Of a stretch of 38,039 bases of DNA, positions 2,515-26,764 are shown piece after piece. A program made the position numbers and the translations under genes. The first letter of the stretch is position 1; the number at the start of each line of letters is the position of its first letter. Source of the stretch: a bacterium (lineage in GTDB: Bacteria > Auribacterota > UBA3054 > JAPLST01); NCBI GenBank assembly GCA_026417575.1, contig JAOACZ010000198.1:1-38039 (forward strand), read 5' to 3'. A model generated the notes under the pieces. The model was given only the letters and a program-made list of their open reading frames with translations. It was not told where the DNA came from and ran no database searches.

Positions 2515-4035
2515 TCAGCGGGAGGATTGTTTGGGGCTAAAGTCAAGTAGGTGACCGAGGACGCGGACGCCGGCCATGACGAGGAAGCGCACGTCCTGCC
2601 AGTTGCGGATGCTAAGGATCTTGCGTGTAATAAAGGCGGGGCTAAGGAACGATTTATAAAGCTGCTGAGTGAGGCGGAGCATGTCAGCAGGGGAAATGGG
2701 CGTAGACATGACTGGTTGACGCATATCAAAATCGTCGTAATCTTCGGTGAGAAGCCAGCTGTTCTCTTTGCACTCCTGGTAGAGAGGCGTACCAGGATAG
2801 GGGATGACGATAGTGGCTTGAAGGGTATCGATGTACCCTTTGCGGAAGAGAGAACGGGCGAAGTCAATAGTGCGTTGGGCGTCTTCAAGTGTTTCCCAGG
2901 GATAGCCGAGCATAACGGTGACATGGGGTTCGAGGCCGGCGGCTTTGCACATACGGGCGCCGTCTTCGATTTGTTGGAGGGTGAGCCCTTTTTGGATGCG
3001 GTCGAGGGTGGCTTGATTGCCGGATTCTAGGCCGTAAAGGATGAAGCGGAATCCAGCTTTTTTCATGAGGTGATAGAGGTCTTGGTCACAGGCATCGAAG
3101 CGGAAGTTGCAACCGAGGACGACTTTTTTGTTGTAGCCGCTTTCGATCATAAGCTGGCAGAAGCGACGGAGCCAGTTACCGGCGCGCATGGTGCCGGCGT
3201 CGTCGAAGATTTCCTTGACGGGATAGTGATCAACGATGTGTTTGATTTCGGCGAAGAGGCGTTCGGGAGAGAAGGAGCGGTAGGTGCCGGGAGGATTGAG
3301 CGTGTGGTCCCACACGCAGAAGGTGCATTTATTCCACCAGCAATCGCGACCGCTGTAGACGTAGGTGCCTGGGGTGTACTTATAGTTACCGTTTTCATAG
3401 GCGTAGAGTTCCCAACGAGTGAGGTCGCGATCAATGAAGGGGAGCTCGTCGAGGTTGTGAGTGAGCTGAGCAGGGCCGGTAGTAGCGAGAGCGCGGCCTG
3501 CGGGTGAGATGACGATCTGGGCATGGGGGGCAGAGATACGTGGATGATCAGCTGGGAACCAAAAGCCCGGTGGGAGGGGGGTGCGATTAGTGAGATGACG
3601 GACGAGATCGAGGACGAGGAAATCGTAGTCTCCGCCAGTGATAATGCAATCTATGGGAGCGTGGTCGAAGGACTCTTGAGGCAGGTAAGTGACGTGGTCG
3701 CCGACCCAGACCTGAAGGAGGTGAGGGAAGCGCTGGCGGATGCGGGCAGCGATCTGCCAATGGCGTTTAATGACGGGGCATTTGGTTTCGAGGAGGATGA
3801 GGTCGGGGGAGGCGAGAGCGAGGCGACGTTCCCACTCGTCGTAGGACCATTTTTCGGCGATGCCATCGAGCCAGGTGACATGGAAACCGTGGGCCGCGAG
3901 GTTGGAGGCGGCATAGGCGGGGACCATGGGGTAGATGTAGGTGGGGGTATGGAAGTACTGGAACTGGCGGTTCTGGGAGAGGAGGGGGACGCCCTTGGGT
4001 GATTCGAGGGGAGGATATACGACAGCGATTTTCAT
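2515..4035 (-). CDS. B12-binding-domain radical SAM protein
   Basis: A 506-residue class B-type radical SAM enzyme (COG1032-like). An N-terminal Rossmann-like cobalamin-binding region (about 1-150, starting MKIAVVYPPLESPKG) precedes the radical SAM core. The cluster motif is C232-x4-C237-x2-C240 (DCWWNKCTFCVW), with one residue more than canonical CX3CX2C; I recall the CWWxxCTFC form from a subset of B12-radical SAM proteins. Downstream core elements include IFDDAGT, LYGLESGNQATLDRIQKG and TVMLGYPWET. The substrate cannot be assigned. The ATG overlaps the TGA of the upstream nuclease gene by four bases (ATGA), so the two are translationally coupled, and it is the last gene of the HEAT-nuclease-radical SAM operon. 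Confidence 0.85.
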   Translation of the reverse strand: MKIAVVYPPLESPKGVPLLSQNRQFQYFHTPTYIYPMVPAYAASNLAAHGFHVTWLDGIAEKWSYDEWERRLALASPDLILLETKCPVIKRHWQIAARIRQRFPHLLQVWVGDHVTYLPQESFDHAPIDCIITGGDYDFLVLDLVRHLTNRTPLPPGFWFPADHPRISAPHAQIVISPAGRALATTGPAQLTHNLDELPFIDRDLTRWELYAYENGNYKYTPGTYVYSGRDCWWNKCTFCVWDHTLNPPGTYRSFSPERLFAEIKHIVDHYPVKEIFDDAGTMRAGNWLRRFCQLMIESGYNKKVVLGCNFRFDACDQDLYHLMKKAGFRFILYGLESGNQATLDRIQKGLTLQQIEDGARMCKAAGLEPHVTVMLGYPWETLEDAQRTIDFARSLFRKGYIDTLQATIVIPYPGTPLYQECKENSWLLTEDYDDFDMRQPVMSTPISPADMLRLTQQLYKSFLSPAFITRKILSIRNWQDVRFLVMAGVRVLGHLLDFSPKQSSR

Positions 4036-5453
4036 GTGGGAGGGTATTCGTTTGGTTCGAGGGGGCGGACGCCAGTGGGGGATAGGGAGAAAGCTTCATT
4101 GGCGAACGGGACGATGACTTCGCGAGCGGTGAGTGATTCAAGGTGTTCGGCGAGGGCGAAGGCCTGAGGTTCTTCACCGTGGACAAGGAAAATGGCGCGC
4201 AGGGAAGGTTGGGCTTGAATCCATTGAGCCAAGCCGCGTTGGTCTGCGTGGGCGCTGAAGGTGTCGTAGTTGTCGATGTGGGCGTGAACGGGGACGACTT
4301 CACCATTAATGCGAACGGAGGGTTGCTTATTGAGGAGGAGGCGGCCGAGGGTATCTTCAGCGCAGAAGCCGACGAAGACGACGCGTGAATTCGGATCGGG
4401 GAGATTGCGTTTGAGGTGGTGGAGGACGCGACCTGCCTCGCACATACCGGAAGCGGTGAGGACGATAAAGGGTCCAGGTTGAGAACGCAGGGCGCGGGAC
4501 TCTTCGGAGGAGACGACATGGACAGCCTGGAGGCGGGCGAAGGTGCGATCGGGCCCGTCAGGCATATGGAGGACATCGGGGTGGCGCATGAAGGCGCGGG
4601 ACGCCTCGACGGAGAGGGGACTATCGACATAGACAGGGATATTAGGCAGTTCGCCAGAGGAGATAAGATCGCGGAGTTCGTAGACGAGGCGTTGAGTACG
4701 GCCGACTGAGTAAGCGGGTATTACGACAACGCCGCCGGCAGCGAGAGTGGAGCGGAGGTTACGAGCGAGTTCGCTGCGAGCGTAGAGATAGGGGCGGTGT
4801 TCACAGTCGCCGTAAGTGCTTTCGAGGATAGCAAAGTCCGCGCCGGAGGGGATGGCGGGGTCGGGCATGATCCAATCATTGGTGCGGCCGACATCGCCAG
4901 AATAAACGAGGGAGCAAGAGCCGTGGGTGGAGAGTTCACGTAAGAGGATGGAGCTTGCGCCGGGGATGTGGCCAGCAGGGATGAAGGAGGCGCGAAGGTG
5001 AGGGCCGAGGACGAGTTCCTCATACCATTTGACTGGTTGCATCAAGGCGAGTGTTTGGCGGACGTCGTCATCGGTGTAGAGATCTGGGAGTGGTGGGAGG
5101 CCGCGTTCGAGGCGCCGTTGGTTGATTTGGGCGGTTTGGGTGCGGAGGACGTACGCGCTGTCGGCGAGGAGGAGGGAACAGAAGTCGATAGTAGCGCGGG
5201 TGGCGTAGATGGGGCCGCGGAAGCCGAGGTGGACGAGCCGGGGTAGGCGGCCACTGTGATCGACGTGGGCATGGGAAAGGAGAACGCCGCTGAGGGAATC
5301 GGGACGCACGGGGAGAGCGGCGTTGCGGGTGTACATATCCTGGCGACGGCCTTGAAAAAGGCCGCAGTCGAGCATCCAGCGGCCATCCCGCGTGTCAACA
5401 AGATGAAGGGAGCCGCTAACGGAGCGTGCGGCGCCACAAAAGAGAACTTTCAC
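4032..5453 (-). CDS. Metallo-beta-lactamase/beta-CASP RNA nuclease (YSH1/CPSF-like)
   Basis: A 473-residue MBL-fold protein with the RNA-processing architecture of COG1236. Metal-binding motif HAHVDH is at residues 61-66 and further ligands are likely in GHIPGA and YSGDVGR. The beta-CASP domain follows (VVIPAYSVGRTQRLVYEL, LTASGMCEAGRVLHHL), and the C-terminal RMMBL-type segment carries DTFSAHADQRGL and FLVHGEEPQA. Family members are endo- or 5'-exoribonucleases acting in the cytoplasm on zinc. The start is GTG at 5453, nine bases after the HEAT lipoprotein stop, with no clear Shine-Dalgarno. Its RNA target is unknown. All catalytic motifs I looked for are present, so it is probably active. 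Confidence 0.88.
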   Translation of the reverse strand: MKVLFCGAARSVSGSLHLVDTRDGRWMLDCGLFQGRRQDMYTRNAALPVRPDSLSGVLLSHAHVDHSGRLPRLVHLGFRGPIYATRATIDFCSLLLADSAYVLRTQTAQINQRRLERGLPPLPDLYTDDDVRQTLALMQPVKWYEELVLGPHLRASFIPAGHIPGASSILLRELSTHGSCSLVYSGDVGRTNDWIMPDPAIPSGADFAILESTYGDCEHRPYLYARSELARNLRSTLAAGGVVVIPAYSVGRTQRLVYELRDLISSGELPNIPVYVDSPLSVEASRAFMRHPDVLHMPDGPDRTFARLQAVHVVSSEESRALRSQPGPFIVLTASGMCEAGRVLHHLKRNLPDPNSRVVFVGFCAEDTLGRLLLNKQPSVRINGEVVPVHAHIDNYDTFSAHADQRGLAQWIQAQPSLRAIFLVHGEEPQAFALAEHLESLTAREVIVPFANEAFSLSPTGVRPLEPNEYPPT

Positions 5454-7963: not shown

Positions 7964-7992
7964 ATTTTAGCGCGTGATGGATGAATTGTCAA
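7964..7992 (-). promoter_or_regulatory. asnS promoter
   Basis: TTGACA (7992-7987), 17-base spacer, TAAAAT (7969-7964) on the minus strand, a near-consensus sigma70 promoter. Ten bases separate the -10 box from the ATG, so the expected start site is near 7957. Confidence 0.75.
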
Positions 7993-10150: not shown

Positions 10151-12157
10151 CTAACGAAGAGCGGAGCGGAGTCGGGCTAAGTAGGATGCAGTTTCTTCTT
10201 CAGATGGTTGTTCCTGATCTGCGTTGTGATGCCATTCGAGCAAATGAGCGGGAATGTCTTTCAAGAATTCCGAAGGGTGGCGGGGCTCCACTTGTCCGTA
10301 GCGAACTCGTGTGCGGGGATAAGAGATTGTGAGCTCATCTCTGGCACGGGTCATTGCAACGTAGAATAACCGGCGTTCCTCCTCAAGCCCACCCGGTAGC
10401 GCAACCGACTTCGCATGCGGAAGAATGCCTTGGTCGCAGCATGCCAAGTACACACAGGAGAACTCTAATCCCTTACTTGCATGGATCGTCATGACGGGGA
10501 CCTTCCCATCCTCAAGCTCCTCGTCATCGTCGTTGCGTAAAAGTGTGATGAACTGCAGGTAGTCTTCCAAAGAGGGCTGCGAGGAGCGTCGCTCATAGGT
10601 GGCGATAGCCTCAAGAAGGGCCTCAACGTTAGCAAGGCGATTAGTGATCTCCTCCGTGGTGCGAGCGGAAGTTTCCAATTCCTTACGGTAGTCGAGCGCG
10701 TTCCACAGCGCGCGTGCCAGAGCTGCTGGCTGTTCCTTAGGCAAGCCACGGCGAAAATCTTCTAGGAAGTGATGCAAAAAGACGAGGGAGCGGGCTGCGG
10801 CTGGTTGAACATGGTCAGTAGGGGGCGTGGCGAGGCATTCGTACAAAGGTCGTCCAGTCTGCGCAGCATGCGCCGCCAGGCGCTCAACCGTCGTTTCTCC
10901 AATTCCACGTGGGGGCACGTTGATGATACGCAACAGGGCCTCGTCGTCTTGCGGGTTCACCAGCACGCGGAGATACGCAAGGAAATCGCGAATCTCCTTT
11001 CGATCGTAAAACTGCGTGCCTCCAACGACTACGTAGGGAACACGGTAGCGCCGCAATACCTCCTCAAATGGCCGTGTGTGGGTGTTCATGCGTAAAAGGA
11101 TTGCGCACGCGCTGTACGGAAGATTGCGCTTCGCACGCCGATCAAGCAAATCAGCGACTACTAATTCTGCTTCGGAGAGCTCGTCAGCTGCGACAAGACA
11201 ACGAATCGAAAGACCACCCTTGCGCGCCGTCCACAGGCGTTTTTCTTTGCGAGCACTGTTACGATGAATCACTGCATTAGCCGCGTCAAGAATGATGGCG
11301 GTAGAGCGATAGGTCTCTTCAAGGCGTACAAGAGTTGCACCTGGGAAATGACGTTCGAAATCGAGAATGTTGCGCACTTCAGCGCCGCGCCAGCCATAAA
11401 TGGACTGATCATCATCTCCCACCACACAAATGTTACGATGTTCACGAGCGAGCTCGTAGAGTAATTTAAATTGCAGAAGGTTGGTATCCTGGTATTCATC
11501 CACGAGAATGTGGGTGAATTGCTCGCGGTACTGTTTGCGAATACGCGGCTCACAGGTGAAAAGACGCAAGGGGAGCTGTAACAAATCTTCAAAATCGACC
11601 GCGTTCGCCGCGCGGAGAGCAGCGCGATAGCGCTCCCAGACGCTTTGGATAACTGTTGTCTCAAGCGCGTCGCGGGGCGGCAGGATCAGCTGATCGGAGT
11701 CAGGCGAGCGCGCAGCTTGCATGGCTGCAAGTATTTCTTCCGCTCGGAATTTTTTCCAGGAAACAGAAATACCGCGCAAGGCTTTTTTCACCAGGGTAAG
11801 CTGATCATTTGTGTCGTAGATGGAGAAATGCGGGTGGAGACCAGCAGCGCGGGCATGTTCGCGCAGAATGCGAAGGCCGAAGCTGTGAAAGGTTGAAATC
11901 TGCATATCGCGCGTTGCACGTCCTGAGAGGGCGTGGACACGCTCCCGCATCTCCTGCGCCGCTTTGTTGGTGAATGTGAGAGCTAAAATGTGTGCAGGGG
12001 GGATCCCTTTGCGCAGCAGGTAAGTGATACGATAGGTAATCGTACGCGTTTTCCCCGTGCCAGCACCGGCAAGCACCAGCACGGGACCGTGGATAGTCTG
12101 GACGGCCGCTCGTTGAGCGGGATTGAGATCGCGTAGCAATGCGTCCACTGTGCTCAT
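10151..12157 (-). CDS. rep: UvrD/Rep-family ATP-dependent DNA helicase, Rep-like
   Basis: Superfamily 1A 3'-5' DNA helicase of 668 residues. Q-motif and Walker A are near the N-terminus (LNPAQRAAVQ; AGAGTGKTRT at about 30-39), followed by LALTFTNKAAQEM, ISTFHSFGLRIL, Walker B DEYQDTN, VVGDDDQSIYGWRG, LEETYRS, MTIHASKGLEF and FYVAMTRARDEL. GDDDQ rather than GDADQ, and a short C-terminus without the usual PcrA/UvrD tail, favour Rep, which helps replication forks past obstacles; PcrA remains possible. The start at 12157 is preferred over 12211 because the only good promoter (12166-12194) lies inside the longer version. No Shine-Dalgarno is present and the mRNA is predicted to be leaderless. Confidence 0.9.
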   Translation of the reverse strand: MSTVDALLRDLNPAQRAAVQTIHGPVLVLAGAGTGKTRTITYRITYLLRKGIPPAHILALTFTNKAAQEMRERVHALSGRATRDMQISTFHSFGLRILREHARAAGLHPHFSIYDTNDQLTLVKKALRGISVSWKKFRAEEILAAMQAARSPDSDQLILPPRDALETTVIQSVWERYRAALRAANAVDFEDLLQLPLRLFTCEPRIRKQYREQFTHILVDEYQDTNLLQFKLLYELAREHRNICVVGDDDQSIYGWRGAEVRNILDFERHFPGATLVRLEETYRSTAIILDAANAVIHRNSARKEKRLWTARKGGLSIRCLVAADELSEAELVVADLLDRRAKRNLPYSACAILLRMNTHTRPFEEVLRRYRVPYVVVGGTQFYDRKEIRDFLAYLRVLVNPQDDEALLRIINVPPRGIGETTVERLAAHAAQTGRPLYECLATPPTDHVQPAAARSLVFLHHFLEDFRRGLPKEQPAALARALWNALDYRKELETSARTTEEITNRLANVEALLEAIATYERRSSQPSLEDYLQFITLLRNDDDEELEDGKVPVMTIHASKGLEFSCVYLACCDQGILPHAKSVALPGGLEEERRLFYVAMTRARDELTISYPRTRVRYGQVEPRHPSEFLKDIPAHLLEWHHNADQEQPSEEETASYLARLRSALR

Positions 12158-12165
12158 AGGGCGGA

Positions 12166-12194
12166 AGTATAACAAGTTGAGGAACGAAAGTAAA
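12166..12194 (-). promoter_or_regulatory. Promoter of the Rep-like helicase gene
   Basis: TTTACT (12194-12189), 17 bases, TATACT (12171-12166) on the minus strand. Only 8 bases separate the -10 box from the ATG at 12157, predicting a leader of about two bases. Confidence 0.6.
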
Positions 12195-12562
12195 GGAGCA
12201 TTAGCTGCCACCCCGAGCTATCAGCATGTGACAAAAGAGGCACCGACGTTTGGTGGTATAGGTGGAGCTCTAGATTGGTTGCAACGGTTAGTTGCCTGGT
12301 TGAGCCCGGGGAGGCATAGGACTTTGGGTTGTAGCCAAGCTAACACTGTGCGCAGGCTATGGCAGAACGATAACTGCGGGAGCAAGACTTTCGGGCATGA
12401 AAATACTGGCAACAACGTGGTAGTGTAAGGCTTGGCGCTAGATCTGAGGGGCAGGAGCAGTACTTTCTTGAAAGTTACACGTGCTTGCGATTGCAAGCGG
12501 GAAAGGTTTGGGCGCTTCCGGATCTCTGGAGCGTCAGTACTGGAGGCGCGATCGTCGGATTG
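12195..12562. other. Divergent intergenic region, no gene seen
   Basis: About 370 bases between the back-to-back promoters of the helicase and the DRTGG gene. No coding signal. A 6-bp stem with a GATT loop is present at 12483-12498 (GCTTGC/GCAAGC). No T-tract follows it. Confidence 0.5.
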
Positions 12563-12591
12563 TTGCGCAGGGTGGAGTGTTTGGGTACAAT
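12563..12591 (+). promoter_or_regulatory. Promoter of the DRTGG-CBS-recG run
   Basis: TTGCGC (12563-12568), 17 bases, TACAAT (12586-12591). The predicted start is near 12598. The short leader holds a 5-bp stem, ACAAG/CTTGT (12598-12602 and 12609-12613), with the GAGGA-like ribosome binding site in its loop. Confidence 0.65.
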
Positions 12592-12616
12592 TAGGTAACA
12601 AGCGAGGACTTGTCCT

Positions 12617-12967
12617 ATGACGGTGCGAGAGTGTATGCAACGATTGGAAGCCGAGGTGGTAGTCGGGGATGAATGGCTTGATCGCAAAGTGGAATCGGTT
12701 GCTGCGTCAGACCTGCTTAGCGATGTGCTCGCAACGCACAAGCACAATTTTTTACTATTGACCGGCTTAAGCACGCCCCAAGTGGTGCGGACGGCTGAGT
12801 TAATGGGAAGCGTGGGGATTGTGTTTTGTCGCGGCAAGTACCCGCCGCAGGATGCAATTGGCATGGCCAAAGTCCACGGAATTCCTTTGCTGTGCACGCG
12901 GCTGCAAATGTTTGAAGCGTGCTGCCGGCTGGCGGGGCTAGGTTTAGAGCAAGACTCGACCCCCTAA
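12617..12967 (+). CDS. DRTGG domain protein
   Basis: A 116-residue stand-alone DRTGG-like domain, a small fold found beside CBS domains and in phosphotransacetylases. Visible features: MTVRECMQRLEAEVVVGDEW, then LLSDVLA, FLLLTGLSTPQVVRTAELM, GIVFCRGKYPPQDAIGMAK and GIPLLCT, matching the usual alternation of sheets and helices. From family context, such proteins are thought to be regulatory or ligand-binding and are common neighbours of GHKL ATPases and bifurcating hydrogenase genes. It begins 19 bases after its predicted transcription start and is followed after 16 bases by the CBS/GHKL gene, so the two are probably cotranscribed and act together. No enzymatic motif is visible. Confidence 0.75.
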   Translation: MTVRECMQRLEAEVVVGDEWLDRKVESVAASDLLSDVLATHKHNFLLLTGLSTPQVVRTAELMGSVGIVFCRGKYPPQDAIGMAKVHGIPLLCTRLQMFEACCRLAGLGLEQDSTP

Positions 12968-25958: not shown

Positions 25959-26579
25959 TCACCCTCGTAGTCCTTCGAGGAGGATCTTGAGACCGATGAG
26001 GATCAGCATGAGGCCACCTACGATTTCGAGTTTGTTTTCGAAGAGGTGGCCGATGGATTTGCCGAGGTAGACGCCGGCGAGGGAGAGGGCGAAGGTGACA
26101 CAGCCGATGATGAGGGCGGGGAGGATGATACCTATGTTGAGGAGGGAGAGGCTCATTCCGACTGCGAGGGCGTCGAGGCTAGTGGCGACAGAGAGCATGA
26201 GGAGGGTGTAAAAGCTCTGCGGGGGGGTAGGAGGAAGAACGTCGAGTTCATCGGCACCGGGCCAGACATCGCGCGTGGGGCGGGGAGGGGAGGAGTTTTC
26301 AGCGGCTTTGAGGACGCGGGCTTCGTAGATCATTTTAGCGCCAATTGCGGTGAGGAGCGCGAAGGCGACCCAATGGTCGACTGAAGCGATGTAATCACGC
26401 AAGCCGAGCCCAGCCAGCCAGCCGATGAGGGGCATGCCGGCTTGAAAGGCGCCGAAGAAGAGCGCCATGCGCAAGGCGTAGCGTGTCCGCATCGTACGCG
26501 CCGCACAACCACTGGAGACAGCGACAGCGAAGGCGTCCATGGCTAGTCCGAGAGCGATGAAGAAGACGGTGATAGACAT
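25959..26579 (-). CDS. mntP: Manganese efflux pump MntP-like protein
   Basis: A 206-residue inner-membrane protein with the six-helix MntP/YebN fold as two similar halves. The first half begins FFIALGLAMDAFAVAVSSGC and the second LLMLSVATSLDALAVGMSLS; the paired membrane aspartates (MDAFAV, LDALAV) are the family hallmark for Mn(II) export. The central cytoplasmic loop (about 95-125) is longer and acidic/Pro-rich (RPTRDVWPGADELDVLPPTPPQ). ATG 26579 is chosen over the longer frame to 26708, because the promoter -10 box ends six bases upstream and predicts transcription beginning at this A. No room remains for a yybP-ykoY manganese riboswitch. Confidence 0.88.
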   Translation of the reverse strand: MSITVFFIALGLAMDAFAVAVSSGCAARTMRTRYALRMALFFGAFQAGMPLIGWLAGLGLRDYIASVDHWVAFALLTAIGAKMIYEARVLKAAENSSPPRPTRDVWPGADELDVLPPTPPQSFYTLLMLSVATSLDALAVGMSLSLLNIGIILPALIIGCVTFALSLAGVYLGKSIGHLFENKLEIVGGLMLILIGLKILLEGLRG

Positions 26580-26585
26580 GTGAAT

Positions 26586-26614
26586 ATTGTAGTTGTTTGG
26601 AAGAAGTTGTGCAA
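26586..26614 (-). promoter_or_regulatory. mntP promoter, predicted leaderless
   Basis: TTGCAC (26614-26609), 17 bases, TACAAT (26591-26586) on the minus strand. Six bases separate the -10 box from the mntP ATG, so +1 should coincide with the A of the start codon. Confidence 0.65.
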
Positions 26615-26764
26615 GTGTATGTACCCTTCTTCGGGCACTCTTGGAGAAGTCCACGACATTGATGGTAGCGTAACCGCGGGGAAGCGTAGCTACGAGACGG
26701 TTAGTCAAAGAGTGTGACGTTGAAACGTGGGTGGTGTGCGGGTGAGAAGTAGGTCGTCATTATA

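Follow-up and report, generated by a model that had tools for sequence, protein, structure and literature searches.

We find that a promoter of the extended -10 type lies directly against the start codon of a gene for a DNA helicase in an uncultured bacterium, and we consider it probable that this gene is expressed from a leaderless mRNA, as an example of a mode that is regular, though confined to a minority of genes, in the order to which the bacterium belongs. The gene lies in a window of 38,039 nucleotides, the whole stretch of DNA that was analysed. The elements of the promoter can be read directly and recur at the orthologous genes of a sister family, and -10 boxes at the same short distance from start codons are in excess across the genome.

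The helicase gene and its promoter

The helicase gene occupies positions 10151 to 12157 of the minus strand and encodes 668 amino acids, which NCBIfam profiles and homology allow us to assign to the UvrD/PcrA/Rep type only. The first-pass annotation of this DNA had called the protein Rep-like, a label that is right as to type but loose, since PcrA scores above Rep (673.9 to 588.6 bits) and neither score reaches the curated NCBIfam cut-off for equivalog status (911.2 and 951.45 bits, respectively). Homology runs from residue 8 onward and the orthologues start within a few codons; thus, the start codon can hardly lie later than ATG 12157, which is also the choice of a dicodon coding score.

Both direct reading and a promoter scan bear out the layout that had been described for the minus strand, TTTACT-N17-TATACT-TCCGCCCT-ATG(12157), with the -10 hexamer ending 8 bases before the ATG, within the 5-9 bases used as a criterion for leaderless genes. 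The -35 hexamer TTTACT (12189-12194) matches the consensus at 4/6 bases; the -10 hexamer is TATACT (12166-12171), and the scan finds TG one base before it, in the TGT (12172-12174) that forms the TGn of an extended -10, with 9/12 consensus bases overall. This is the sole promoter-like match on either strand between 11900 and 12700 (1 found compared to 0.3 +/- 0.6 in shuffles). The helicase is the first gene of its unit, as its upstream neighbour is divergent and 459 bases off, and between -20 and -4 relative to ATG 12157 there is no GGAG, GAGG or AGGA that could serve as a Shine-Dalgarno sequence.

RNA polymerase prefers to start at a purine, and its usual start point lies 7-9 bases downstream of the -10. 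The gap between -10 and ATG (12158-12165) is pyrimidine at 7/8 positions, and the bases 7, 8 and 9 after the -10 are C, T and the A of ATG. Since that A is the first purine at the usual start distance, a leader of zero is as likely as one of two bases. The two-base leader proposed earlier therefore stands insofar as a start at or near the ATG is predicted, but the leader may be absent altogether; the mRNA probably begins at ATG 12157 or at most two bases before it. Reading these DNA signals together, we propose that an extended -10 promoter of sigma-70 type would transcribe the gene, that its mRNA would begin at the A of ATG or one or two bases earlier, and that the ribosome would presumably load at the AUG of the 5' end with no Shine-Dalgarno sequence, as on leaderless mRNAs elsewhere.

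Orthologous promoters and alternative readings

The predicted leaderless layout of the helicase promoter is real and conserved in related species. We searched 59 genomes for helicase orthologues, and those compared here come from the same order. In the sister family f3, 8/8 sampled genomes carry TTTTGCTATAAT, followed by 7 mostly pyrimidine bases (GCTCCCT, TCTCCCC or GCTTCCC) and ATG, although these genomes are closely related and do not represent eight independent events. TATAAT stands at the place of the window's TATACT in all eight; when seven of them are aligned with the window, TTG, TATA, T and ATGAG are invariant, the TG of the extended -10 is conserved in all seven orthologues, the upstream spacer drifts, and the -35 hexamer is not conserved. 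In family f2 (four genomes), the counterpart, a TGnTATAAT or similar box, is found 34-35 bases upstream of the helicase ATG, and in the one genome of f4 the -10 box lies 30 bases before it, positions that would imply leaders some 23-28 bases long. In G001, from a sister genus within the window's own family, the helicase is second in an operon, with a four-base overlap with its neighbour, and no -10 occurs within 60 bases upstream of its GTG start. Thus, one promoter appears in three arrangements: leaderless, leadered and operon-internal.

We considered that the box near the ATG might be a chance look-alike, with the true promoter further upstream and an ordinary leader, which we regard as unlikely. 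Such a -10 occurs in any four neighbouring positions (12-69 upstream) of about 2% of operon-leading genes, so that a single site among the roughly 28 genes of the window is not decisive alone, and the 4/6 match of the -35 is mediocre. However, both box and spacing recur in 8/8 orthologues of the sister family, the region 11900-12700 offers no other promoter-like match, and -10 boxes peak genome-wide at the leaderless distance (see below). A misassigned start codon seems more improbable still. A later start would give the mRNA a leader, but homology from residue 8 leaves no room for one; the open frame does reach upstream to the in-frame GTG 12211, a start that would place the promoter inside the coding region of the helicase, but this extension crosses the conserved promoter, is not itself conserved in the alignment, and is passed over by the coding score in favour of ATG 12157.

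It is also very improbable, in our judgement, that the promoter starts at least 4 bases early, producing a short and non-functional leader, and that expression comes from a second, leadered transcript. Start-point choice does vary, and a G sits 4 bases after the -10, but 4 bases is an unusually short distance for RNA polymerase, and the orthologues keep a gap that is almost free of purines. A further promoter upstream of the helicase may yield a leadered mRNA. We favour the leaderless reading of the promoter at ATG 12157.

Leaderless-type signals across the genome and its relatives

Leaderless expression is, as far as DNA signals tell, a regular minority mode in this order. The first-pass annotation had proposed computing -10-to-start distances and Shine-Dalgarno frequency over the full genome, and we did this on 860 kb (32%) of the 2.70-Mb genome, which is in 239 contigs and 81% complete. 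Genes were called with a simple dicodon program of our own that is blind to upstream motifs and not benchmarked. After removal of 48 of the 620 genes, which had N in the 200 upstream bases or lacked them, 572 usable starts were left, 325 of them of operon-leading genes and 196 of genes inside operons. We defined a -10 box as TA...T with at least 5/6 matches to TATAAT and took the expectation from positions 12-69 upstream.

We observed a -10 box at a gap of 5-8 bases in 26 of the 325 operon-leading genes, compared to 7.3 expected, with a peak at gap 6 (14 genes), and in 0/196 genes inside operons. There was no excess in control genomes from another family of the phylum (G018; 1/84, 3.4 expected) or from outside it (G053; 1/96, 4.8 expected), and a smaller one in G011, a member of f3 (10/114, 4.8 expected). 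Dinucleotide shuffles of the window's genome gave 2.5 boxes at gap 4-10 (maximum 6 in 60 shuffles) compared to the 31 found, and 46.9 compared to 144 at gap 11-150. If the excess of boxes is taken as the set of recognisable promoters, then about 23% of these lie at the leaderless distance (11% in G011, none in the controls), and at the strict -10 threshold about 9% of operon-leading genes are of the leaderless type. The earlier suggestion that leaderless translation is common thus fits the DNA signals at the helicase and genome-wide, but as a minority mode. Base composition averaged over the upstream regions of operon-leading genes, from a smaller sample, shows no visible -10 peak; this flatness agrees with a minority, for which such averages are too blunt.

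The boxes at leaderless distance are accompanied by -35 matches. For the 26 hits, the best -35 match at a spacer of 16-18 averages 4.0/6, compared to 2.35 at random positions, and 58% of hits reach at least 4/6 compared to 10% of random positions; boxes further upstream are similar (mean 3.51, 46% at least 4). In G011 the -35 matches of the hits are weak (2.7, compared to 2.44 at random positions). Among 87 reciprocal pairs between the two samples, both genes are operon-leading in 21, and these numbers are too small to interpret further: both genes are of leaderless type in two pairs, only the gene of the window's genome in one, only that of G011 in two, and neither in 16. The two shared pairs are the helicase and a 35%-identical repeat protein.

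Shine-Dalgarno use in this genome is low. The annotation had noted that many starts lack such a sequence, and indeed an SD-like 4-mer (GGAG, GAGG or AGGA at -20 to -4) precedes only 8/27 complete gene starts in the window. In the 860-kb sample it precedes 118/325 operon-leading genes (36%, compared to 21% in a control stretch) and 88/196 genes inside operons (45%, compared to 19%); the values in G053 are 62/96 and 48/67. The 299 operon-leading genes other than the 26 hits comprise 118 with an SD-like 4-mer and 181 with neither that nor a -10 at gap 5-8. Thus, starts without a Shine-Dalgarno sequence are mostly not explained by leaderless promoters, and its absence by itself is no evidence of a leaderless mRNA. 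A search for SSU rRNA gave a match in 0/19 genomes including that of the window and in 9/14 control genomes.

Two more genes of the window had been listed as near-leaderless, and their promoters, both on the minus strand, agree with this. That of mntP, TGCACA-16-TACAAT (26586-26613), ends only 6 bases before ATG 26579, so that no leader is expected; that of asnS, TTGACA-17-TAAAAT (7964-7992), ends 10 bases before ATG 7953, which predicts a leader of about 3-4 bases. The longest frame of asnS opens with the TTG of the -35 TTGACA itself (7987-7992), and the likely start is ATG 7953. The matches of the MntP-like protein (25959-26708) in relatives form two halves around residues 92-119, which suggests that it carries a mid-protein insertion. 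Elsewhere in the window, a Beta-CASP metallo-hydrolase (4032-5453) scores below the cut-offs both of the type VII CRISPR Cas14 model (332.8 bits; cut-off 800) and of aCPSF1 (230.5 bits; cut-off 580).

We compared 20 of the 31 candidates at gap 4-10 with Pfam and found a family match for 20/20, including LepA, RecJ, a DinB-type polymerase, RibD, TatD, MoaC and a prepilin peptidase. The domains of LepA, RibD, TatD and MoaC begin at residue 1-3, so that these starts cannot be further downstream. Four candidates, counting the helicase, belong by family to DNA repair or damage (also RecJ, the DinB-type polymerase and the TatD nuclease). One DinB-family gene of the leaderless type has, in the spacer of its promoter, a perfect inverted repeat, CATACA-TT-TGTATG (L137 4111-4124; G000:C22), which recurs in the sample with one mismatch at L137 9769 and with two mismatches at nine more places; it is a possible candidate for a damage-response operator.

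Tests that do not depend on gene calls are consistent for the window's genome, mixed for G011 and flat for both controls. After the 764 -10 boxes of the sample, an ATG occurs at gap 5-8 in 86 cases compared to 51.5 expected, and in G001 in 10 compared to 4.2, with no clear excess in G011 (28 to 26.9), G018 (69 to 67.4) or G053 (41 to 37.4). A second test, with a broader box, a gap of 5-10 and the requirement that the frame stay open for 60 codons, gave 92 compared to 60.0 expected in the window's genome, 6 to 4.4 in G001, 39 to 42.2 in G018 and 21 to 25.2 in G053; G011 had 31 compared to 34.6 expected, though 13 of these were at gap 7 alone. There was no excess of GTG starts in the sample (73 compared to 75.6 expected).

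We also counted TATAAT-N6-8-ATG in whole genomes relative to TATAAT-N14-16-ATG. The counts were 46 to 26 in the window's genome (p 0.012), 100 to 59 in G001, 42 to 21 in f4 and 333 to 176 in the 8 genomes of f3; families f1, f3 and f4 together (11 genomes) gave 521 to 282, with ratios of 1.5-2.6. The four AT-rich genomes of f2 gave 1020 to 929 (ratio 1.10), 29 other genomes of the phylum 2686 to 2682 (ratio 1.00), and 15 genomes outside the phylum 1035 to 962. An uncorrected p <0.05 was obtained in 5 of the 44 genomes outside the order (G021, G033, G041, G047 and G053), where about 2 are expected. One of these, G047 from outside the phylum, had the strongest leaderless signature of all 59 genomes (28 to 2) and served as an unplanned positive. 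By RpoB identity, the nearest named genomes other than the phylum members are a Verrucomicrobia MAG (56%) and an Omnitrophota MAG (55%), close to the values for four genomes of the same phylum (56-58%).

Relation to known leaderless systems

With these results, the lineages in which leaderless genes are regular come to include an uncultured order, and in it a single orthologous promoter takes leaderless, leadered and operon-internal arrangements across related families, which makes the helicase promoter a natural series for studying leader gain and loss. They are also of use for gene-start annotation, since start models based on Shine-Dalgarno sequences may misplace starts in such genomes. A more speculative idea, which we hold to be improbable, is that leaderless expression emerged or spread within this order, the signal being absent from the phylum mates sampled, and that selection maintains it at particular genes, several of them repair genes, for translation when leadered initiation is impaired; the extended -10 of the helicase would then be traceable through leaderless, 30-35-base-leader and operon-internal states. 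Our literature search showed no study of leaderless genes for any lineage relatable to this one, a result of little weight as the name of the lineage was lacking.

Leaderless genes as such are a known habit, for instance of Deinococcus and mycobacteria, and the uncultured lineage is the addition made here. Leaderless mRNAs are described as binding directly to the 70S ribosome (PMC5397173), and leaderless transcription has been predicted in 21.6% of bacterial species (as cited in PMC9581028). A near system is the bacterial leaderless class of GeneMarkS-2, with Mycobacterium tuberculosis as an example (Lomsadze et al. 2018, cited in PMC9581028). Zheng et al. (2011) reported TA-like leaderless signals in 207 of 953 bacterial genomes (PMC3160421); as in their account, the signal here is TANNNT about 12 bases before the start, a minority mode, and TAtaaT is kept at medium GC, whereas we set an uncultured order against its own phylum. 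In D. radiodurans a -10 motif lies 6-7 bases before nearly one-third of genes (PMC12340547), compared to the lower share of operon-leading genes found here at the strict threshold. The genes examined here resemble those described for Deinococcus-Thermus in the same source, in that a -10 lies about 6-7 bases before the ORF without a Shine-Dalgarno sequence and the genes are not obviously confined to one pathway; in contrast, -35 matches and TATAAT or TATACT are common among our hits, while in Deinococcus-Thermus TACACT is the most frequent form (PMC12340547).
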